Source: Pollenia angustigena
Lineage: Eukaryota > Arthropoda > Insecta > Diptera > Polleniidae
Length of the DNA stretch: 64,000 nucleotides
Reading direction: 5' to 3'
Assembly (NCBI GenBank): GCA_930367215.1
Contig: OV884059.1
Span: forward strand, 146,566,511-146,630,510
Shown: positions 18,185 to 64,000 of the stretch, piece after piece
Position numbering within the stretch: position 1 is the first letter of the stretch
How the letters are laid out: every line of letters begins with the position of its first letter
Position numbers and translations under genes: made by a program
Notes under the pieces: generated by a model
The model's database searches: none
The model's input: only the letters and a program-made list of their open reading frames with translations
Told to the model about the DNA's origin: nothing

Positions 18185-18394
18185 TACAAAATCACTAAAA
18201 ACGTATAAGAATAAATCAAATTCTAAGATTTTATTTTATTTGTTTTTTGATAAAAAAAAAATTGTTCGATTAATCGACATTAATTAATCTATTTATTCGT
18301 TATTCGAAAATCGACATTTTGAAATTATTCGAACAAGAGTTTAATTTTGTTTGATCGATTAATCGAATTATTCTTAATCGGTTGACAACTCTCT

Positions 18395-40123: not shown

Positions 40124-41238
40124 TTAATATAACTAGCATAGATGGGGATAGTGCACTCATTTTGCAGTTTCAACTCACACTTAGTGTTAGTTCAAAAATA
40201 TTGCAAACATTTTGTTGATGTTGAGTGATAAATTAAAAATTTGCAGCCTAACATGAGTGATAGTGATTTTAAAAAAATAGTGTGATTAAAAAAAGCAATC
40301 ATCCGCTTATTGCAACTTTTTTTTCTTCACTTCTTTGAGTGCAACTTAAATTGTTGCACTAAATTTAAAATTAAAAACTTGTTTTTTCATTCATTTTGTT
40401 TTAGGTCTTTACTTATGCATATCCTCAAAAGAAATCAAAAACCATGCACATACAAAGTTCCATTTTTTTAAATTTTAGTGAGACAATATTTGTATGCAGT
40501 TTTTTGATTGCATGCCCAAATTTTGCACTATTTGAATTGAGTGCAGGTTTTTGCATTCAATCTGCTTTTAGTGATAGTGAAAAAATTTGGATTAAAAACC
40601 ATAAATAGTTCAACAAAATAACCACAGTACTAATTATTGTTAAAGCTAAGGCACGAGCTCTATGTTTCCATTTGTCCTTCAAGTTGTGCTGAAAAAGGTC
40701 AACAGGAAAAGGAAAGACAAAGAAAATGAAAAACAAAACAAATAATGTACTTTGGACTTCAAGAAGAATTCTTGACAAAAGTACGAAAAAACAGAAGTAA
40801 GGAAAAACATGTAAAATAAATTAAAATAGATAATCATGCAAAGAAAATTTCGATCTATCAAAGGTTAAATACAATTTGGTTTAAGGATTGATGTTTGACT
40901 TTTGATTTCAGCAGTCGTCGATGGCTGTGAGTGTTGGGAGATTTCATGTCAAGTGACCCAATTTTTAAATCGATGTCTTCCGATTTGGGTGAAATTAGCA
41001 CCAAGTCCTATTAAATAGTAGTTAAGACACAAATTTTCAACAAGATCGGTCAAAAAGTTTCTGAGATAAAAGGGGTCAAAGTTTGACATTTTGGCCATAC
41101 AGGTGTTCTTTCTCATACATGTTACTTATTACCTATTGGTATTAGACAAATTTGTCCCAAGTAGCTTAGATACCTATTTGATCAGTCTTTTTAAAAACAC
41201 TATTTTTGTTTTTCTTTTAATTTTAAAAATTTTTTTTT
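40124..41238. other. AT-rich DNA with a noncoding repeat
   Basis: 40,160-40,590 has inverted GTGCA and GCAATC motifs resembling a decayed MITE. 40,930-41,100 (GTCAAGTGACCCAATTTTTA) looks like dispersed-repeat sequence. No gene. Confidence 0.4.
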
Positions 41239-41553
41239 AATTTAAAACTTTTTTTATTGTTTTTTAGCGGGAATGTTTTTTTTTTTTTTGCTGAAAAGAA
41301 AGCTTATGTCTTTTCCTTTAAGGTAGTTCTGGTCTTTTAGGAAAAAATTCAAAATAGTGCTGCATATGCTAAAAATGTAAAAACCCTCGTCTTGAGTTAG
41401 AAATTATTTTTTTATACATAAGCCACTTTTTTATACATGAGCCACACTACATAAGCGACCAAAACTACCTTTAAGGAAAAGACATAAGCTTTCTTTTCAG
41501 CAAAAAAAAAAAAAAAATTCCCGCTAAAAAAAATAAAAAAAAAGTTTTAAATT
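41239..41553. repeat. Large hairpin, 91-bp arms and 133-bp loop
   Basis: Left 41,239-41,329 and right 41,463-41,553 are nearly perfect inverses (TTAGCGGGAA, GCTGAAAAGAAAGCTTATGT, CCTTTAAGGTAGTT). The right arm abuts the solitary 471-bp-family copy. The loop repeats TTTTTTATACAT(A/G)AGCCAC twice. Confidence 0.8.
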
Positions 41554-41943
41554 TCAAAAGATTTTGTTATTCGTGCTTAATTCCCAGTTTTTATTATTGA
41601 TAAAAACACTTGAAATTTATTGTTGATGGGATAAGTTATTCCTATGCGCATTTCACTGGTTGCTTAGGCCAGATCATCAGGAATCTTCATCCATAAAGAT
41701 TTTAGAAAAACTAAAGATATTAAACCAAATAAAACTGTTAAACGTATAAGACTTATAGCAACAGTTCTACTTGTAATAATATCAAAGCTTAAACAACAAA
41801 ACAAAATTTGTATTCCCAAAAATTGAAATTACTTTTTGATAATAAACAGGCAAGTGCACGGCCTAAAAAACACTTAATTGACAACATCTTTTGTAAGTTG
41901 TTGTTGTTTTTATTTTGTTTTTCTTAACCTACTTACAACTACA

Positions 41944-42493
41944 AGTAAAAGGTCTGTCTGCGTACACATATTTTGCGAAAAATGTTGCAAAATGTTGTCT
42001 GCGTACTCCAAATCTCTTGCAGCGAGAGAGCCGAAAAGAGAATTTTTTGACAGTTGGAAGTTAGAGAACTTGCTAAATGTTACTGGAGAAATTTCCGCTT
42101 GCAAGATTTTGCAAATAGTTTGAACAGCTGTTTGATTGAAATAGTTTTTGTGAAATGAAATTATTTTTCTCCGTTGTCAAGCTGTTGGAGGGCACTGTAT
42201 TGGGCATTTCATTTTTTTTTTCCATTATACCCGGCACTATGTTGGGCAATGTAAGCAAAATAAGTTTTATAAAAAACCCGACAAATAAAACTAAAAACTA
42301 AGAAGAAATTGAATTTACCGAAATAATTGTTATTTCAATTTTACACACCGATCAGCTGTTTTCTTGCAAAATTTCACTGGATACTGTCTGCGTACTTTTT
42401 GAGATTTTTTCAGCCGATAGAGTAATATTGGTCTTACTCTCCCAAAAAAATTTACTGAGTATTTGCTACTGGAAAAGTACCCAGACAGACCTA
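41944..42493. mobile_element. About 550-bp TIR element inserted in the solitary unit
   Basis: Ends AGGTCTGTCTGCGTAC and GTACCCAGACAGACCT, one mismatch in 16. The 471-bp array supplies the uninterrupted site (ACAACTACAATTAATGTTGA). Superfamily not assigned. Confidence 0.75.
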
Positions 42494-42516
42494 ATGTTGA
42501 GAGAATTTCAACTAAT

Positions 42517-43096
42517 TGTAGTGGCGATTTTGAAACGTGTTTGGCGATGGGATTTCCCATTTGGCGACTGACGACATTTATGGCGATTTCTTATATAACT
42601 GGCAATTAACTTGGCTATTTTAACCTATTATATTATTTCGTCGATTTTGTTTAACAAATCGACATTTTTTGTTATCATTACTAATATAAAAAAACATATT
42701 AAGTGAATTTTATATTCAGTCACTATTTAATTCTAATAGTACGTATGTAATTGTCATAGTATGTAGGTCAAAATTCCAGTAATGAAGTCGGTGAGGCTGA
42801 AGTGTACGATCTTATAGGCTTGTGTACTTAATTAAGGTTTTTAACTGAACACATATATTATCTGCAATTTATGTTATTTAAAAAAAAATTACAGAAACAA
42901 AACAAAATTTACTTCGGCGACTTTTTGGTATTTTTTCTCAGTTTTTGGCGATTTTTGACTAAAAATTATACTAGCGTTTTTTGTATGCAAAATTTAATTT
43001 AAAAAAAAAGACAATTTTACAAAAACTGAACAAAATCGAGGTTTGGCGATTTCTGACATCCGGTTTGGCGATGGAGCTCAAAAAAATCTGACAACC
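42517..43096. mobile_element. hAT-like element lacking its left tip
   Basis: Right end TCTGACAACCCTG (inverse CAGGGTTGTCAGA), followed by GTAGTGGG. The left flank reads GTAGTGGC then GATTTTGAAACG, so the target octamer is kept but the first 11 bases of the expected left end are missing. TTTGGCGAT motifs recur near both ends. Confidence 0.65.
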
Positions 43097-43170
43097 CTGG
43101 TAGTGGGGAATGTAAGATGAGATAAACCCACTGTTTATTGTTGATGTGTTTTGTTTAAGCTTTGATATTT

Positions 43171-47655: not shown

Positions 47656-47667
47656 ACATTCATATAA
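47656..47667. repeat. Left 12-bp direct repeat flanking the 471-bp array
   Basis: ACATTCATATAA, identical to 52,346-52,357. Confidence 0.85.
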
Positions 47668-50600
47668 ACACTTGAAATTTATTGTTGATGGGATAAGCTA
47701 TTCCTATGCATTTCACTGGTTGCTTAGGCCAGATCATCAGGAAACTTCATCCATAAAGATTTTAGACAAACTAAAGATATTAAACCAAATAAAACTGTTA
47801 AACGTATAAGACTTATAGCAACAGTTTTACTTGTAACAATATCAAAGCTTGAACAAAATACATCAACAATAAAAAAGTGGGTTTATCTCATCTTACACTC
47901 CCCACTACAATTAGTTGAAATTCTCTCAACATTAATTGTAGTTGTAAGTAGGTTAAGAAAAACAAAATAAAAAACAAACAACAACTTACAAAAGATGTTG
48001 TCAATTAAGTGTTTTTTTTAGGCCGTGCACTTGCCTGTTCATTATCAAAAAGTAATTTCAATTTTTGGGAATACAAAATTTTAATTTCAAAAGATTTTGT
48101 TATTCGTGCTTAATTCCCAGTTTTTATTCTTGATAAAAACACTTGAAATTTATTGTTGATGGGATAAGCTATTCCTATGCATTTCACTGGTTGCTTAGGC
48201 CAGATCATCAGGAAACTTCATCCATAAAGATTTTAGACAAACTAAAGATATTAAACCAAATAAAACTGTTAAACGTATAAGACTTATAGCAACAGTTTTA
48301 CTTGTAACAATATCAAAGCTTGAACAAAATACATCAACAATAAAAAAGTGGGTTTATCTCATCTTACACTCCCCACTACAATTAGTTGAAATTCTCTCAA
48401 CATTAATTGTAGTTGTAAGTAGGTTAAGAAAAACAAAATAAAAAACAAACAACAACTTACAAAAGATGTTGTCAATTAAGTGTTTTTTTTAGGCCGTGCA
48501 CTTGCCTGTTCATTATCAAAAAGTAATTTCAATTTTTGGGAATACAAAATTTTAATTTCAAAAGATTTTGTTATTCGTGCTTAATTCCCAGTTTTTATTC
48601 TTGATAAAAACACTTGAAATTTATTGTTGATGGGATAAGCTATTCCTATGCATTTCACTGGTTGCTTAGGCCAGATCATCAGGAAACTTCATCCATAAAG
48701 ATTTTAGACAAACTAAAGATATTAAACCAAATAAAACTGTTAAACGTATAAGACTTATAGCAACAGTTTTACTTGTAACAATATCAAAGCTTGAACAAAA
48801 TACATCAACAATAAAAAAGTGGGTTTATCTCATCTTACACTCCCCACTACAATTAGTTGAAATTCTCTCAACATTAATTGTAGTTGTAAGTAGGTTAAGA
48901 AAAACAAAATAAAAAACAAACAACAACTTACAAAAGATGTTGTCAATTAAGTGTTTTTTTTAGGCCGTGCACTTGCCTGTTCATTATCAAAAAGTAATTT
49001 CAATTTTTGGGAATACAAAATTTTAATTTCAAAAGATTTTGTTATTCGTGCTTAATTCCCAGTTTTTATTCTTGATAAAAACACTTGAAATTTATTGTTG
49101 ATGGGATAAGCTATTCCTATGCATTTCACTGGTTGCTTAGGCCAGATCATCAGGAAACTTCATCCATAAAGATTTTAGACAAACTAAAGATATTAAACCA
49201 AATAAAACTGTTAAACGTATAAGACTTATAGCAACAGTTTTACTTGTAACAATATCAAAGCTTGAACAAAATACATCAACAATAAAAAAGTGGGTTTATC
49301 TCATCTTACACTCCCCACTACAATTAGTTGAAATTCTCTCAACATTAATTGTAGTTGTAAGTAGGTTAAGAAAAACAAAATAAAAAACAAACAACAACTT
49401 ACAAAAGATGTTGTCAATTAAGTGTTTTTTTTAGGCCGTGCACTTGCCTGTTCATTATCAAAAAGTAATTTCAATTTTTGGGAATACAAAATTTTAATTT
49501 CAAAAGATTTTGTTATTCGTGCTTAATTCCCAGTTTTTATTCTTGATAAAAACACTTGAAATTTATTGTTGATGGGATAAGCTATTCCTATGCATTTCAC
49601 TGGTTGCTTAGGCCAGATCATCAGGAAACTTCATCCATAAAGATTTTAGACAAACTAAAGATATTAAACCAAATAAAACTGTTAAACGTATAAGACTTAT
49701 AGCAACAGTTTTACTTGTAACAATATCAAAGCTTGAACAAAATACATCAACAATAAAAAAGTGGGTTTATCTCATCTTACACTCCCCACTACAATTAGTT
49801 GAAATTCTCTCAACATTAATTGATGATCTGGCCTAAGCAACCAGTGAAATGCATAGGAATAGCTTATCCCATCAACAATAAATTTCAAGTGTTTTTATCA
49901 AGAATAAAAACTGGGAATTAAGCACGAATAACAAAATCTTTTGAAATTAAAATTTTGTATTCCCAAAAATTGAAATTACTTTTTGATAATGAACAGGCAA
50001 GTGCACGGCCTAAAAAAAAAACACTTAATTGACAACATCTTTTGTAAGTTGTTGTTTGTTTTTTATTTTGTTTTTCTTAACCTACTTACAACTACAATTA
50101 ATGTTGAGAGAATTTCAACTAATTGTAGTGGGGAGTGTAAGATGAGATAAACCCACTTTTTTATTGTTGATGTATTTTGTTCAAGCTTTGATATTGTTAC
50201 AAGTAAAACTGTTGCTATAAGTCTTATACGTTTAACAGTTTTATTTGGTTTAATATCTTTAGTTTGTCTAAAATCTTTATGGATGAAGTTTCCTGATGAT
50301 CTGGCCTAAGCAACCAGTGAAATGCATAGGAATAGCTTATCCCATCAACAATAAATTTCAAGTGTTTTTATCAAGAATAAAAACTGGGAATTAAGCACGA
50401 ATAACAAAATCTTTTGAAATTAAAATTTTGTATTCCCAAAAATTGAAATTACTTTTTGATAATGAACAGGCAAGTGCACGGCCTAAAAAAAACACTTAAT
50501 TGACAACATCTTTTGTAAGTTGTTGTTTGTTTTTTATTTTGTTTTTCTTAACCTACTTACAACTACAATTAATGTTGAGAGAATTTCAACTAATTGTAGT

Positions 50601-52345
50601 GGGGAGTGTAAGATGAGATAAACCCACTTTTTTATTGTTGATGTATTTTGTTCAAGCTTTGATATTGTTACAAGTAAAACTGTTGCTATAAGTCTTATAC
50701 GTTTAACAGTTTTATTTGGTTTAATATCTTTAGTTTGTCTAAAATCTTTATGGATGAAGTTTCCTGATGATCTGGCCTAAGCAACCAGTGAAATGCATAG
50801 GAATAGCTTATCCCATCAACAATAAATTTCAAGTGTTTTTATCAAGAATAAAAACTGGGAATTAAGCACGAATAACAAAATCTTTTGAAATTAAAATTTT
50901 GTATTCCCAAAAATTGAAATTACTTTTTGATAATGAACAGGCAAGTGCACGGCCTAAAAAAAACACTTAATTGACAACATCTTTTGTAAGTTGTTGTTTG
51001 TTTTTTATTTTGTTTTTCTTAACCTACTTACAACTACAATTAATGTTGAGAGAATTTCAACTAATTGTAGTGGGGAGTGTAAGATGAGATAAACCCACTT
51101 TTTTATTGTTGATGTATTTTGTTCAAGCTTTGATATTGTTACAAGTAAAACTGTTGCTATAAGTCTTATACGTTTAACAGTTTTATTTGGTTTAATATCT
51201 TTAGTTTGTCTAAAATCTTTATGGATGAAGTTTCCTGATGATCTGGCCTAAGCAACCAGTGAAATGCATAGGAATAGCTTATCCCATCAACAATAAATTT
51301 CAAGTGTTTTTATCAAGAATAAAAACTGGGAATTAAGCACGAATAACAAAATCTTTTGAAATTAAAATTTTGTATTCCCAAAAATTGAAATTACTTTTTG
51401 ATAATGAACAGGCAAGTGCACGGCCTAAAAAAAACACTTAATTGACAACATCTTTTGTAAGTTGTTGTTTGTTTTTTATTTTGTTTTTCTTAACCTACTT
51501 ACAACTACAATTAATGTTGAGAGAATTTCAACTAATTGTAGTGGGGAGTGTAAGATGAGATAAACCCACTTTTTTATTGTTGATGTATTTTGTTCAAGCT
51601 TTGATATTGTTACAAGTAAAACTGTTGCTATAAGTCTTATACGTTTAACAGTTTTATTTGGTTTAATATCTTTAGTTTGTCTAAAATCTTTATGGATGAA
51701 GTTTCCTGATGATCTGGCCTAAGCAACCAGTGAAATGCATAGGAATAGCTTATCCCATCAACAATAAATTTCAAGTGTTTTTATCAAGAATAAAAACTGG
51801 GAATTAAGCACGAATAACAAAATCTTTTGAAATTAAAATTTTGTATTCCCAAAAATTGAAATTACTTTTGGATAATGAACAGGCAAGTGCACGGCCTAAA
51901 AAAAACACTTAATTGACAACATCTTTTGTAAGTTGTTGTTTGTTTTTTATTTTGTTTTTCTTAACCTACTTACAACTACAATTAATGTTGAGAGAATTTC
52001 AACTAATTGTAGTGGGGAGTGTAAGATGAGATAAACCCACTTTTTTATTGTTGATGTATTTTGTTCAAGCTTTGATATTGTTACAAGTAAAACTGTTGCT
52101 ATAAGTCTTATACGTTTAACAGTTTTATTTGGTTTAATATCTTTAGTTTGTCTAAAATCTTTATGGATGAAGTTTCCTGATGATCTGGCCTAAGCAACCA
52201 GTGAAATGCATAGGAATAGCTTATCCCATCAACAATAAATTTCAAGTGTTTTTATCAAGAATAAAAACTGGGAATTAAGCACGAATAACAAAATCTTTTG
52301 AAATTAAAATTTTGTATTCCCAAAAATTGAAATTACTTTTTGATA
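47668..52345. repeat. Inverted tandem array of a 471-bp unit, about 10 copies
   Basis: The marker CACTTGAAATTTATTGTTGA starts at 47,669, 48,140, 48,611, 49,082 and 49,553 (period exactly 471). After about 49,822 its inverse TAAATTTCAAGTG ends at 49,891, 50,364, 50,835, 51,306, 51,777 and 52,248. Forward units cover about 4.6 copies and inverted ones about 5.4. Units are almost identical; I see only an A-run change (9 versus 7) near 50,010 and one T-to-G at about 51,870. No open frame or RNA promoter is apparent. A 12-bp direct repeat flanks the block. Confidence 0.95.
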
Positions 52346-52357
52346 ACATTCATATAA
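52346..52357. repeat. Right 12-bp direct repeat flanking the 471-bp array
   Basis: ACATTCATATAA, identical to 47,656-47,667. Confidence 0.85.
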
Positions 52358-53044
52358 TATTTACCGTGTTTGCATTTTTATATATTTAAATATTTTGGAT
52401 TCGAACATGTGGTGCCGGAAGCCAGGCACTTTAAATCTCAATGTTAGTAATTTTTCACAAAACCTGATAAGTTTGTTACTGTAAAACAATAACATGTATT
52501 AATACTAGAGTTGTCAACCGATTAAGAATAATTCGATTAATCGATCAAACAAACCCAAACTCTTGTTCGAATAATTTCAAAATGGCGATTTTCGAATAAC
52601 GAACAAATCGATTAATTAATGTCGATTAATCGAACAATTTTTTTAATAAAAAAAAAAAAAAATTCTAAGCTTTTATAGAATTTGATTTATTCTCATACGT
52701 TTTTAGTGATTTTATACAAAATGTAGGAAAGTTAAAAAATATTGTAGCCATAGCCCTGACTGTAACTACCCTACAAGAAATGGATGACCAAAACTAAAAA
52801 AAAAAAATTTTACTAACACACTTGCAACAATTTTACATTAGTTGTACCACTCTAACATATATGTTAGAGTAGAACAACTGAAAACAACACAAAAATTCCA
52901 ATTTTTTTTTAATTTTTGTTATACATACGCTTTACTGGCTAATATTTGTGAAAATTTGTGAATTGTTTAAATTAAATACTGCAAAATATTTTAATAATTA
53001 TTAAAATAAATAAAGAAAATCCAAAGGATTTGGGTAAGTAAGTT

Positions 53045-59966: not shown

Positions 59967-60348
59967 GAAGAGAATAATAAGGTACGTACTCTGTGGAATT
60001 TGGAAATTATATATATATTGTGTCGCGAGAAATTGAGGTTACGTCGCGCCAAAAATAAGACCATAAAATTTTAAGAGCCATCTTTTTTTACTCGCCGGTT
60101 CTACCCGTTACTCGTCGAATTGTTGTTATTTTTTTTTGTAGCCCAATAAGTCAATTGTTGTATTTATATAAATAAAAGGAAAAATCCAACATAAATTTTG
60201 TTTGCCTCAAGTTGTTTTATTTTCATAAATAAAAGGAAAAGTGTTGCCAGCGCGTCAATTTTTTTTTCAATTAAATTTTTGCTGGGAATTGATTTTTTGT
60301 GGCTCTTAAGACAACTAGATTATTTTGTTCGATTTTTAAAAATAAGAA
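59967..60348 (+). other. Untranslated leader of the retrotransposon
   Basis: 382 bp between primer site and gag start. AAGGTACGT at 59,980 could act as a splice donor, unproven. CATAAATAAAAGGAAAA-type repeats at 60,168 and 60,224 (about 56 bp apart). Confidence 0.6.
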
Positions 60349-63300
60349 ATGGCTACATTTGAAAAATTTATTGAGGCTGCAGATGAAATAACGAATATGG
60401 AGGTTATGTTGAAAGAAGAAGATTTTTCAACGTATACCAATGTTGCGTTCGAGTTTGAGAAGAACGAGTTAGAGAAAAGTTGGGAAAAATTTAAGAAAAT
60501 TTATGGCGAGTGTTCCGGGGACACTATAGAGGAAAAAAAGGAATTAATAGCGGTCAAGACAAAATTTCCTCTGGTGCGAAAAACATATATAAAATGTTTA
60601 AATATTTTGGCGAATGCAAAACAGGTAGTAGACGATGAGAAACAAAAAAGTAAGGAAGCAGTGGCTCCCAATCTTTGTTCAATACCTGTACCCCCTTGTG
60701 ATACTGGCGTTTTTCATGGCGATTACGTTTCGTGGCCCACCTTCAGGGACATGTTTACGGCAATCTACATAAACAATTCTAGACTTAGCCCTGTAGAAAA
60801 ATTGTTTTATTTATTTCAAAAAACAGATAGTGAGGCCCGTGATATTAACAGAAATATTGCCCTCACAGCAGAAAATTTTGAGATTGCGTGGGGAAATTTA
60901 AAATCCCAATATGAGAATAAACGGGTGTTAATAAATAGTCAGCTTAAGACTTTATTTAATTTGGCTCCATGTCAACGAGAAACGGCTGCGGAAATAAAAA
61001 GGCTCCAAAGGGAGATTAATAATTGTATTTCAGTGCTAAAGTTATATAAAGTAGATATTGCCTCATGGGACCCGATTTTTGTTTTTCAATGTTCGTCTCG
61101 GCTCTCAGAAAATACTTTGCATCTGTGGGAGCAATCGGTAAAAAATAAAACAGAGGTTCCCAAATGGGAAGAATTAAATAATTTTCTGACCGATAGATTT
61201 CATGCCCTTGAAAGTGTTTCTGACATTATAGTAGCGAACAATATAGCTGCCAGTGGTTCCCAAGCAGGCCCTTCACATAATAATACTTCTACAAAAGTTA
61301 AGCAGTTTAAGACACATCACACAAAAGTTGACTCTAGCACATGTAAATTATGTAAGGAAAATCATAAGATTAGTGTTTGTAATAAATTTTTGAGCATGGA
61401 TTACAAAAATCGTGTTTCAACGTTAAAAAGATTTCGTTTTTGTTTTAATTGTCTTACTATGGGGCATTTGTATGGAGAGTGCAGTAGTGCTAATGGCTGT
61501 TCTAAATGCAATAGAAAACACCATACACTAATACACAAAGAAATAGTAAGAAATAACAATAATAATCAAAGCCAAGCAAACACTAATTCTCAAGCTCAGA
61601 GTCAAAATACGCAAAGTCAAATACAGTCCACTAATGTTGCCGGCCCTTCTAGTGTAGTTCAGTCACATCATACCTCTGTTGCAAAAAAGGTTATGTTAGC
61701 CACAGCCTGGGTTAACATTTTAAGTTTTGGTTCCTGTTACAAGGTTCGTGCCCTGATAGATCCATGTTCGGATGAAAGTTTTGTTTCAGAAAAGATACAA
61801 AAATTATTAAAGTTGCCAACTAATCCAGTTTCTGCAGAAGTCTCAGGTTTAGGCGGAGAGATAATTAGTTCGTCTTCGAAAATGGCAGTTTTTACTATTG
61901 TTTCTCTTTTCGATCAGAACGTGGCTCTAAATATTCAGGCCCTTGTTGTCCCTCGAGTAACGGGTAGTATTCCAACACATTCATTTTTGCCTCAAAAAGA
62001 GATTGAGCTGCCCAAATTGTGTTATGCTGATCCGAAGTTTTATGAAAGCAGTGAGATTGATTTGTTGTTAGGAGGTGATCTTTATCCTTCTATTCTTCGT
62101 GGTGGAGTAAGGCATGGTGTTTTTGAATCGTTAGTGGCTCAAGAAACCATTTTTGGTTGGATAGTTACAGGTCCAACGCCTGCTAGAGTTTCCCCTCGAA
62201 TATTAAGAGTGTCTCATATGACAAAAGTTGCAATTGATGACCAATTATCGAAGTTTTGGGAGTTAGAAGAGGTGTCTCAGAGACGTATTTTGTCAGAAGA
62301 GGATAAAAAATGTGAGGAGATCTACAATTCTACTACCACTAGAAACTCTGAAGGGAGATATACTGTGAGTCTGCCCTTTAAAAATAGTTTGCTGTCGCTT
62401 GGTCCCAATAGGCATATAGCTGTTTGTCAATTTCTAAGAAATGAAAAATCTTTGATGCGCAATGCTGAGCGTAAAGCCCAGTACGATGAGGTCCTAAAAG
62501 AATATTTAACCCTATGGCATATGGAGAAAGCAGAAAGTGCTGAAGGTGGCCAGGGTTATTATTTACCCCATCATGGCGTTTTTAAGCCTGAAAGTACAAC
62601 TACGAAATTGAGGGTAGTTTTTAATGCCTCAAGTCCTTCGGCAAATGGCAGAAGCTTAAATGATTTGTTGTACACTGGCCCTATTTTGCAAGCTGAAATA
62701 GTAAATCTAATTTTGAGATGGCGATTTTTTCAGTTTGTATTTAATGCGGACATTTCAAAAATGTACCGGCAGATTTTTGTGACTCCCACACATAGGCCGT
62801 TCCAGAAAATTGTGTTTCGAAGCAGTGATGGTGCAGAACTTACTGATTACCAACTGAAAACGGTGACTTTTGGTGTAAATTGTGCCCCATATTTGGCCCT
62901 TAGAACCATTCTACAGTTGGCGAGTGATGAAGAACGACGTTTTCCGTTAGGTGCTAGAATCCTGCGAGAAAATATGTACGTGGACGATGCCCTAGTTGGT
63001 GCCCATTCAGTTGCGGATGCTTTGGTGGCACGTGAGGAATTAATTGCCATTTTGGATATGGGGGGATTTGAGCTCAGAAAATGGACCTCGAATTCTGCAG
63101 AAATTTTGAAAAATTTGCCCCATGATCACCTGCTTAATTCTTCATTTTTGTCGCTCGATGAAAAAAGCACAACAAAAACGTTAGGGATTCGCTGGAATGC
63201 GGCAGAAGATGTGTTTTTCTTTGTTGGGGAAAAGATAACACTAAAAGCCTCATATACGAAAAGAGAGGTTCTTTCTACCATTGCTCGGCTATACGATCCT

Positions 63301-64000
63301 GCGGGTTGGTTGGCTCCGGTGGTAGTTGCAGCAAAAATTATAATGCAGCAAATGTGGCTTGATAAGATCGAGTGGGACGAGGCAATCAAACCAGTGGCTC
63401 TGCAGAAATGGCAGACTTTTGTTGCGAATTATGCGGATATTGAAAAGATTAAGTTGCCACGTTGGGTTCAATATTCGCCTGGCTGTACTATTCAATTTCA
63501 CGGGTTCTGTGACTCGTCTGAGTTGGCGTATGCAGCTACAATATATATAAGGGTACAGCTCGAAAATAAAGTTTTATCAAGTTTGCTCACATGTAAAACG
63601 AAAGTGGCCCCAATAAAGAAGCCGTCTTTGCCTCGTTTGGAGTTATGTGGAGCAGTTATTTTGGCAAATTTAGTCGATAATGTGGTACCTACTTTTAACG
63701 TGAATAAATCCCCCCTGTATTTGTGGTCCGATTCCACAATTGTCCTAGCTTGGCTAAGAAAACCACCTTGTAGCTGGAAAACATTCGTGGCAAATAGAGT
63801 AGCTACAATATTAGAAAAAGTGGGGAATAAAAACTGGTGTCACGTGGCTTCAGGTGATAATCCTGCCGATCTAGCAACCCGGGGGCTGATCCCTGCGGAT
63901 TTGATAGAAAATATGCTCTGGTGGCACGGACCTGAGTGGCTCAACTTGGAGCCGTCTTCGTGGCCCGTAGGAGCAGTGGAGTTCGAGACGGCAGAAGAGT
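60349..64000 (+). CDS. BEL/Pao gag-pol polyprotein, open to window edge
   Basis: ATG at 60,349 opens a single frame with no stop through 64,000 (1,217 codons, C-terminus outside). Domains in order: gag region resembling DUF1759 (about 100-270); cysteine-histidine knuckles (about 332-398, CKLCKENHK, FCFNCLTMGHLYGEC, CSKCNRKHH); aspartic protease of the DUF1758 type (about 450-590, ALIDPCSDESFVS, the active-site D with PCS instead of the usual SGS); reverse transcriptase (about 690-900, LRVVFNASS, FNADISKMYRQI and the catalytic YVDD at 877-880); RNase H region (about 1,050-1,150, GFCDSS, PRLELCG, LYLWSDSTIVLAWL). Integrase would lie downstream, outside the window. One uninterrupted gag-pol frame is normal for BEL. 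The lack of disablement suggests recent insertion. Insects' BEL elements without env stay inside the cell. Confidence 0.95.
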   Translation, partial: MATFEKFIEAADEITNMEVMLKEEDFSTYTNVAFEFEKNELEKSWEKFKKIYGECSGDTIEEKKELIAVKTKFPLVRKTYIKCLNILANAKQVVDDEKQKSKEAVAPNLCSIPVPPCDTGVFHGDYVSWPTFRDMFTAIYINNSRLSPVEKLFYLFQKTDSEARDINRNIALTAENFEIAWGNLKSQYENKRVLINSQLKTLFNLAPCQRETAAEIKRLQREINNCISVLKLYKVDIASWDPIFVFQCSSRLSENTLHLWEQSVKNKTEVPKWEELNNFLTDRFHALESVSDIIVANNIAASGSQAGPSHNNTSTKVKQFKTHHTKVDSSTCKLCKENHKISVCNKFLSMDYKNRVSTLKRFRFCFNCLTMGHLYGECSSANGCSKCNRKHHTLIHKEIVRNNNNNQSQANTNSQAQSQNTQSQIQSTNVAGPSSVVQSHHTSVAKKVMLATAWVNILSFGSCYKVRALIDPCSDESFVSEKIQKLLKLPTNPVSAEVSGLGGEIISSSSKMAVFTIVSLFDQNVALNIQALVVPRVTGSIPTHSFLPQKEIELPKLCYADPKFYESSEIDLLLGGDLYPSILRGGVRHGVFESLVAQETIFGWIVTGPTPARVSPRILRVSHMTKVAIDDQLSKFWELEEVSQRRILSEEDKKCEEIYNSTTTRNSEGRYTVSLPFKNSLLSLGPNRHIAVCQFLRNEKSLMRNAERKAQYDEVLKEYLTLWHMEKAESAEGGQGYYLPHHGVFKPESTTTKLRVVFNASSPSANGRSLNDLLYTGPILQAEIVNLILRWRFFQFVFNADISKMYRQIFVTPTHRPFQKIVFRSSDGAELTDYQLKTVTFGVNCAPYLALRTILQLASDEERRFPLGARILRENMYVDDALVGAHSVADALVAREELIAILDMGGFELRKWTSNSAEILKNLPHDHLLNSSFLSLDEKSTTKTLGIRWNAAEDVFFFVGEKITLKASYTKREVLSTIARLYDPAGWLAPVVVAAKIIMQQMWLDKIEWDEAIKPVALQKWQTFVANYADIEKIKLPRWVQYSPGCTIQFHGFCDSSELAYAATIYIRVQLENKVLSSLLTCKTKVAPIKKPSLPRLELCGAVILANLVDNVVPTFNVNKSPLYLWSDSTIVLAWLRKPPCSWKTFVANRVATILEKVGNKNWCHVASGDNPADLATRGLIPADLIENMLWWHGPEWLNLEPSSWPVGAVEFETAEE

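Follow-up and report, generated by a model that had tools for sequence, protein, structure and literature searches.

Opposed arrays of a 471-bp retrozyme-like unit in Pollenia angustigena as likely insertions copied from both target strands by a Penelope-type enzyme

A 64,000-nucleotide stretch of the Pollenia angustigena genome (contig OV884059.1, positions 146,566,511 to 146,630,510; hereafter the window) contains, at window positions 47656-52357, two opposed arrays of a 471-bp unit, with approximately 4.6 antisense units on the left and 5.36 sense units on the right. This block likely represents one insertion event by a non-autonomous element of the metazoan retrozyme kind, the RNA of which, probably circular, was copied from both target strands by an enzyme of the type encoded by Penelope-like elements (PLEs). 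With rather more reserve, we also favour the general proposal that retrozyme RNA circles are the template for transposition, such that a PLE enzyme would prime from both cut strands at two set sites and roll round the circle several times; dimer and tetramer circles would serve as well, generating patterns of period two and four, and opposed arrays would be the seeds of satellites, sown in a single insertion. The arms, their order, the preferred tips, the target duplications, the variants shared between arms, and a PLE of the same plan elsewhere in the genome are all read directly from the sequence.

In the proposed mechanism, the template is an RNA of 471 nt that was most likely a circle, and that hammerhead self-cleavage and ligation probably produced. 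A PLE-type enzyme would make cuts approximately 12-16 nt apart in the two strands of an AT-rich target, leaving 3' overhangs, and each 3' end would be extended on the RNA from either tip A (approximately u449) or tip B (approximately u411), as a rule with one site per strand (unit positions u1-u471 are numbered from window position 50485, on the plus strand). Both complementary DNAs (cDNAs) would then make several turns of the template, their number varying from case to case, before short homology joined them into antisense-left, sense-right arrays within a target duplication. Recurrent tips A and B approximately 38 nt apart, a single order of orientation, and duplications of 12-18 bp are what is expected of such PLE-type target-primed reverse transcription.

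Anatomy of the block

The block is bounded by a 12-bp direct repeat, ACATTCATATAA, at 47656-47667 and 52346-52357, the first A of the right copy being common to tip A. This sequence occurs only twice in the window, at these two flanks, and random pairs of boundaries shared a 12-bp match in just 56 of 200,000 trials. The flanking repeat reported by a first-pass annotation of this DNA is present, and has the properties of a genuine target duplication. The left arm (47668-49822, minus strand) contains 4.6 antisense units, running from an outer tip near u361 to an inner end at u82, with its alignment extending a few bases into the duplication. The right arm (49821-52346, plus strand, the proposed RNA strand) contains 5.36 sense units, running from an inner end at u281 to an outer tip A at u449 (...CTTTTTGATAA). 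The arms meet at a single switch of orientation, where they overlap by 2 bp of microhomology (49821-49822), and the stopping of one at u82 and the beginning of the other at u281 makes the centre of the block asymmetric; the flanks are likewise without mirror symmetry. All units are identical, save for the extension of an A8 run to A10 in one, and a T to G change in another. The window alignment therefore bore out the earlier description of about ten near-identical units with a constant 471-bp period that switch orientation once. The mismatch between the outer tips, which that description had also emphasised, proved a real clue, although the difference in unit phase is 88 nt (u361 versus u449), rather than about 120.

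The reference unit (50485-50955, plus strand) has a GC content of 28% and is essentially non-coding: the longest ATG frame around the circular unit is 32 aa, and neither a reverse transcriptase (RT) nor an endonuclease is encoded. A transposase is likewise absent from the unit, the only sequence in which one was sought. No empty site for the block was found among the sequences fetched from the genome, and its right flank alone, used as a genome query, returned a dispersed repeat. This repeat lies at approximately 52480-52757, has 2,835 candidates in the genome (40 of which were scored), and also occurs near 18185-18392.

Tips, target duplications and shared variants across the family

The genome was searched as one assembly of 1.37 Gb in 31 contigs. 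With 40 of 404 candidates scored, the unit had at least 171 matches (E<=0.001), and a 236-bp probe from a second, older copy in the window had at least 42 (40 of 1,461 candidates scored); a 25-base exact pattern from the unit had no match in viral and genomic contig collections. The resulting 53 loci comprise the two copies in the window, all 31 others listed in the unit search, and 20 of the 36 others from the probe search, all picked by match score irrespective of architecture. Two-armed structures account for 36 of these loci, and one-armed structures for 17, with the longest arms reaching 17 units. The strand switched from antisense to sense in 36 of 37 cases, the lone exception lying where an older fragment (88% identity) meets locus L027.

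The outer tips are similarly constrained, with 73 of 81 falling in two intervals that together represent 8% of the unit and are separated by approximately 38 nt: 35 at tip A (u440-455), 38 at tip B (u400-421), and eight elsewhere. In the reference unit, the tip A region (u440-u454, ...CTTTTTGATAA) corresponds to 50924-50938 and the tip B region (u400-u416, ...CTTTTGAAATTA), preferred at other loci, to 50884-50900, both on the plus strand. Both ends were readable in 29 two-armed loci, which divided into 21 with one tip of each type, one with two A tips (L040), none with two B tips, and seven scored as other. The automatic count halts at interruptions, which accounts for the last assignment at L011, L018, L024 and the second window copy, leaving L028, L030 and the window block (u361 and A) as the genuine departures among the seven. 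The motif TTGATA occurs three times in the circular unit and coincides with three of the four window tips; descent from a long interspersed nuclear element (LINE) with a TGATAA tail was considered, and dropped since the wider set of loci revealed two preferred tips.

Target duplications recur with these tips. The 22 loci with tips A and B (the 21 from the tip count plus L011, with an outer tip at u403, and not including the window block) have duplications of 12-18 nt, 17 of which are perfect and five of which contain one mismatch, and which by eye are mostly A/T. The method used to find them favours long matches in AT-rich DNA, and therefore a control was constructed in which the left end of one locus was paired with the right end of another. 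No more than 10 nt from the tips, 19 of 25 two-armed loci had an exact repeat of 12 nt or longer, compared with 4 of 600 mock pairings. This control covered 25 of the 36 two-armed loci, as the other 11 had a tip beyond the fetched stretch, were interrupted, or lacked the A and B tips, and the 17 one-armed loci fell outside it. No duplication was found at the tips of L040, and that of L030 is merely 8 nt. At L026, a related repeat beside L049 aligns over the junction at 76% without the insert, which in view of the low-complexity duplication there is weak evidence for an empty site. Given the duplications, the recurrent tips and the recurrent order, it is most likely that the whole block was inserted in one event, as the first-pass annotation had suggested.

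The two arms also share their variation. Variants fixed in an arm of at least two units were fixed in the opposite arm too in 54 of 58 observations, although these treat every arm as its own observation, such that two long arms count a locus twice, and some of the variants mark subfamilies. The four exceptions are at L017 (three) and L027 (one); at L017 the variants at u125 and u130 are not the same in the two arms, as though two template molecules served. As in all these counts, only substitutions were considered at the young loci, where 144 variant positions covered by at least four units comprised 46 present in all units, 83 in one, four in all but one, and 11 that were intermediate. Together, the variants suggest that one template usually served both arms, with many passes. 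Some loci show periodicity: at L022, G and A alternate at u142 along eight units (GAGAGAGA), and at L028 variants at u44, u51 and u171 recur approximately every four units, with those at u292, u301 and u392 being less regular. Such patterns would be expected of rolling on a dimer or tetramer ring, and could also be yielded by unequal exchange. The latter locus (L028:799-8858) combines 17 sense units, the variants of which have a period of four, with a brief antisense start at u406.

The unit as RNA and its relation to known systems

Priming by both target 3' ends on one RNA produces an antisense left arm and a sense right arm, hence the RNA would be of u sense. Independently of arm order, it is only in this sense that a hammerhead-like motif was found. 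This candidate type I hammerhead (50759-50804, plus strand), predicted to cleave after 50799 (u315), consists of helix I GTTTC/GGAAT, the core CTGATGA at 50764 (u280), helix II CTGG/CCAG with U.U at its base, GAAA, and a helix III formed by the palindrome AUGCAU (AUGCGCAU in older copies). The core is also present at 50293, 51235, 51706 and 52177 on the plus strand and, in plus-strand coordinates, at 47734, 48205, 48676, 49147 and 49618 on the minus strand. A descriptor composed after the candidate was seen matched the unit once, on the sense strand, compared with 1 of 20,000 shuffles in sense and none in antisense, and, the two copies apart, had no match elsewhere in the window. The core is retained in 227 of the 229 copies spanning the region. 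This motif may self-cleave. The predicted circular fold of the unit is much more stable than those of 100 shuffles (z = -5.4).

Of 91 inner ends, 2.7 would be expected 6 nt or less from the position of predicted cleavage, and none was found there. This absence of a pile-up, together with the multi-unit arms, argues that cleaved linear monomers were not the template, which would instead be either a circle or an uncleaved multimer. The homogeneous and periodic copying, and the self-pairing, suggest that the RNA was probably circular.

The precedent for the copying step comes from PLEs. The purified anole protein cleaves and extends both target strands, with reverse transcription beginning at two adjacent internal RNA sites that define a "tail"; in this assay the start sites were the same for both strands, hammerhead cleavage was dispensable, and unprocessed RNA was the main substrate (PMC11167929). 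In the available text of a further study, PLE insertions often show inverted repeats together with a target duplication and, optionally, a tail (PMC3846280). The family described here has in common with PLEs, as far as these sources portray them, an inverted and a direct arm, tips offset as by their 30-40 nt tail, a target duplication, and a hammerhead-like motif in the repeated part, and would resemble them also in having two internal start sites for RT and extension of both strands (PMC11167929, PMC3846280).

The same plan is found in this genome, in which a search with one PLE protein gave at least 60 matches (58 of 8,120 candidates scored), 30 of them full-length-like, with frames exceeding 800 codons and no stop within the matched part, and in which at least 19 GIY-YIG matches were found (150 of 493 candidates scored). 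At L061, the inverted arm of a PLE (637-1457 against 4469-3646) is accompanied by a 201-bp direct repeat, and by a 14-15-bp duplication that contains one mismatch and had no separate control. The tips of this PLE are approximately 32 nt apart, compared with approximately 38 nt between A and B, and its hammerhead-like motif lies 99 and 131 nt from them, compared with 94-96 and 132-134 nt in the unit. The L061 frame contains an RT domain and a GIY-YIG match slightly below the curated cut-off, and its endonuclease end is broken by stops, making this a broken copy. Autonomous PLEs encode both RT and GIY-YIG, whereas the unit does not, and in this genome these are encoded by separate PLEs, an enzyme from which may have been the copying partner.

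Several further loci juxtapose the two types of element. At L060:3043-3748 (minus strand), 1.5 units of 92.5% identity end at tip B, and lie approximately 350 bp upstream of, and in the same orientation as, a truncated PLE. The hint that the unit could be the pseudo-long terminal repeat (pLTR) of a PLE was rejected, on account of this truncation and because none of the PLE ends examined is similar to the unit. At L062, a piece of PLE interrupts a diverged unit between u100 and u102, and is read as a nested insertion. The PLEs at L066-L070 have, by eye, a TTAGGCCYTATTAGCT-like sequence after the hammerhead-like motif, possibly a protein-binding element.

In LINE-1 twin priming, which happens occasionally and on linear, polyadenylated RNA, both target ends prime on one RNA, generating an inverted 5' part and short homology at the junction. 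The two-armed form is commoner in the family studied here (36 of 53 loci), which differs too in its two preferred internal sites, and in the many turns of one template. The schistosome W-elements have hammerheads and one presumed target duplication, with no mention of opposed arrays in the text available (PMC8490949).

The unit is closest to the metazoan non-long terminal repeat (non-LTR) retrozymes, which in the available text of two papers are also short, AT-rich, non-coding tandem repeats with strongly self-paired RNA (PMC7229834, PMC7761336). Hence the first-pass statement that no known family fitted held for Foldback elements, but not in general. The portrayed retrozymes have type I hammerheads, the type of the candidate motif here, and the axolotl examples extend the likeness to the U.U at the base of helix II (Amex2) and the palindromic loop of helix III (Amex1) (PMC7229834). 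Their target duplications exceed 4 bp, as do those found here, and they too share their genome with PLEs (PMC7229834, PMC7761336). The length of 471 nt differs from the approximately 170-400 nt given there for retrozyme RNAs, and is slightly above the reported repeat range of 150-450 bp (PMC7229834). Opposed arrays, tips A and B, and arms sharing a template are not mentioned for metazoan retrozymes in the text available (PMC7229834, PMC7761336), the word "inverted" being absent from the main text of the former (PMC7229834).

Much of the framework was already in place: retrozymes and PLEs are known, and the reverse transcription of retrozyme circles into multimers has been proposed and drawn as a model in the accessible part of one paper (PMC7761336). 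PLEs have been named as likely retrozyme helpers, in what is available of two papers, from their co-occurrence and shared hammerheads (PMC7761336, PMC7229834). In the accessible portions of this cited work, the return of animal retrozyme circles to chromosomes is proposed rather than shown, and a literature search at the level of listings, abstracts and excerpts found no description of opposed multi-turn retrozyme insertions. The insertions described here would record the start sites on the RNA, priming by both target strands, a usually single template, and many passes over it. They would thereby connect retrozymes with the mechanism that was reconstituted for PLEs in 2024, in which assay the idea of the circle as template is testable, and would offer a one-step origin for opposed satellite arrays.

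Competing explanations and neighbouring features

The most substantial alternative retains two-strand priming by a PLE-type enzyme, and replaces the circle with a long linear RNA, transcribed from a tandem array already in the genome and left uncleaved. We regard this as unlikely, though it is consistent with PLE insertion in vitro being independent of hammerhead cleavage, with unprocessed RNA as the dominant substrate (PMC11167929). Arms of up to 17 units require no more than a long transcript, and periodic variants could stem from a higher-order pattern already established in the source array. However, a transcript of an old array should place unit-specific changes at matching spots in both arms, whereas at L031, the window block and L034 (10, 11 and 15 unit pieces, respectively) variants from the consensus either recur throughout both arms or, for the most part, are confined to a single unit, the latter fitting later mutation. 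Of the 11 intermediate variants, none spans both arms, save for the difference between the arms of L017.

The remaining explanations dispense with target-primed copying, and are each far less probable. A Foldback-type DNA transposon with tandem units in its terminal inverted repeats is very improbable, despite the parallel with Tetris of Drosophila virilis, which in the available text also has opposed tandem arrays within a target duplication, its inverted ends containing tandem repeats of approximately 220 bp (PMC4079207). Tetris nevertheless has true inverted termini with outer domains, and duplications of 8-10 bp (PMC4079207), whereas here the outer ends correspond to two distinct places in the unit, A and B, approximately 38 nt apart, and not inverted copies of one another, the duplications are 12-18 nt, 17 of 53 copies are single-armed, and the unit, the extent of the search, contains no transposase. 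The unequal termini and the long, variable duplications thus uphold the first-pass judgement that the block is a poor Foldback. Growth of a satellite in place followed by inversion, or the re-integration of extrachromosomal DNA, with a chance repeat at the flanks, has marginally less to commend it: the homogeneity of the tandem units would be explained, and unequal exchange could produce the higher-order pattern of L028, but the duplications (19 of 25 loci), the order of the switches (36 of 37) and the two preferred tips would be left unaccounted for. The same evidence bears out the earlier view that the block did not arise by growth of a satellite in place; the accompanying suggestion of a transposon or re-integrated circular DNA is not needed, and any circle would have been RNA. 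Scarcely credible, to the same degree, is an artefact of assembly or library preparation, such as palindromic reads or a collapsed repeat. Near-identical opposed repeats are difficult to assemble, and the unit count may be wrong, but the centre (u82/u281) and flanks are not mirrored, and the architecture recurs elsewhere with its own duplications and variants.

Several observations nevertheless weigh against copying of a retrozyme circle by a PLE enzyme. The left tip of the window block, at u361, is atypical of the family, and this block, L028, L030, L040 and the second window copy all depart from the pairing of A with B. Since PLE start sites were strand-independent in the assay, and unprocessed RNA was the main substrate, neither strict pairing of A and B nor the use of a circle is predicted by it; moreover, a long uncleaved tandem transcript could partly mimic a circle, and the arms of L017, differing at u125 and u130, did not come from one monomer. 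The unit has no sequence similarity to the PLE ends examined in the genome. As a hammerhead, the candidate has a mismatch at the base of helix II and a minimal helix III, its descriptor was devised post hoc, and the core is absent from L065, the most diverged copy (83%). An Rfam scan of the block found no hammerhead at E<=10, but also missed the hammerhead-like motifs of PLEs, and a genome search with RF00163 found none, with its positive control silent everywhere too. The opposite strand is likewise strongly self-paired (z = -4.6, 100 shuffles), and the analysis has the scope of a single genome.

The older copy at 41541-43169 is 95% identical to the unit over its best stretches, and repeats the inverted then direct arrangement on a smaller scale. 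Its antisense arm (41541-41796, minus strand) spans u416-u164, and its sense arm, all on the plus strand, begins at 41803-41948 (u410-u88), resumes after an inserted element at 42492-42527 (u86-u121), and ends after a second at 43100-43169 (u112-u182). Its true right end is u182, neither tip A nor tip B. The first inserted element (41949-42491) has the ends AGGTCTGTCTG...CAGACAGACCT, and the second (42528-43099) has the short flanking repeat GTAGTGG. The left tip of this copy is adjoined by the right end of an imperfect palindrome at 41227-41565 (approximately 340 bp, 75% self-complementary). Elsewhere in the window, a 1218-codon open frame at 60346-63999 (plus strand), containing a Pao retrotransposon peptidase (Peptidase_A17) and DUF1759, runs past the window edge.

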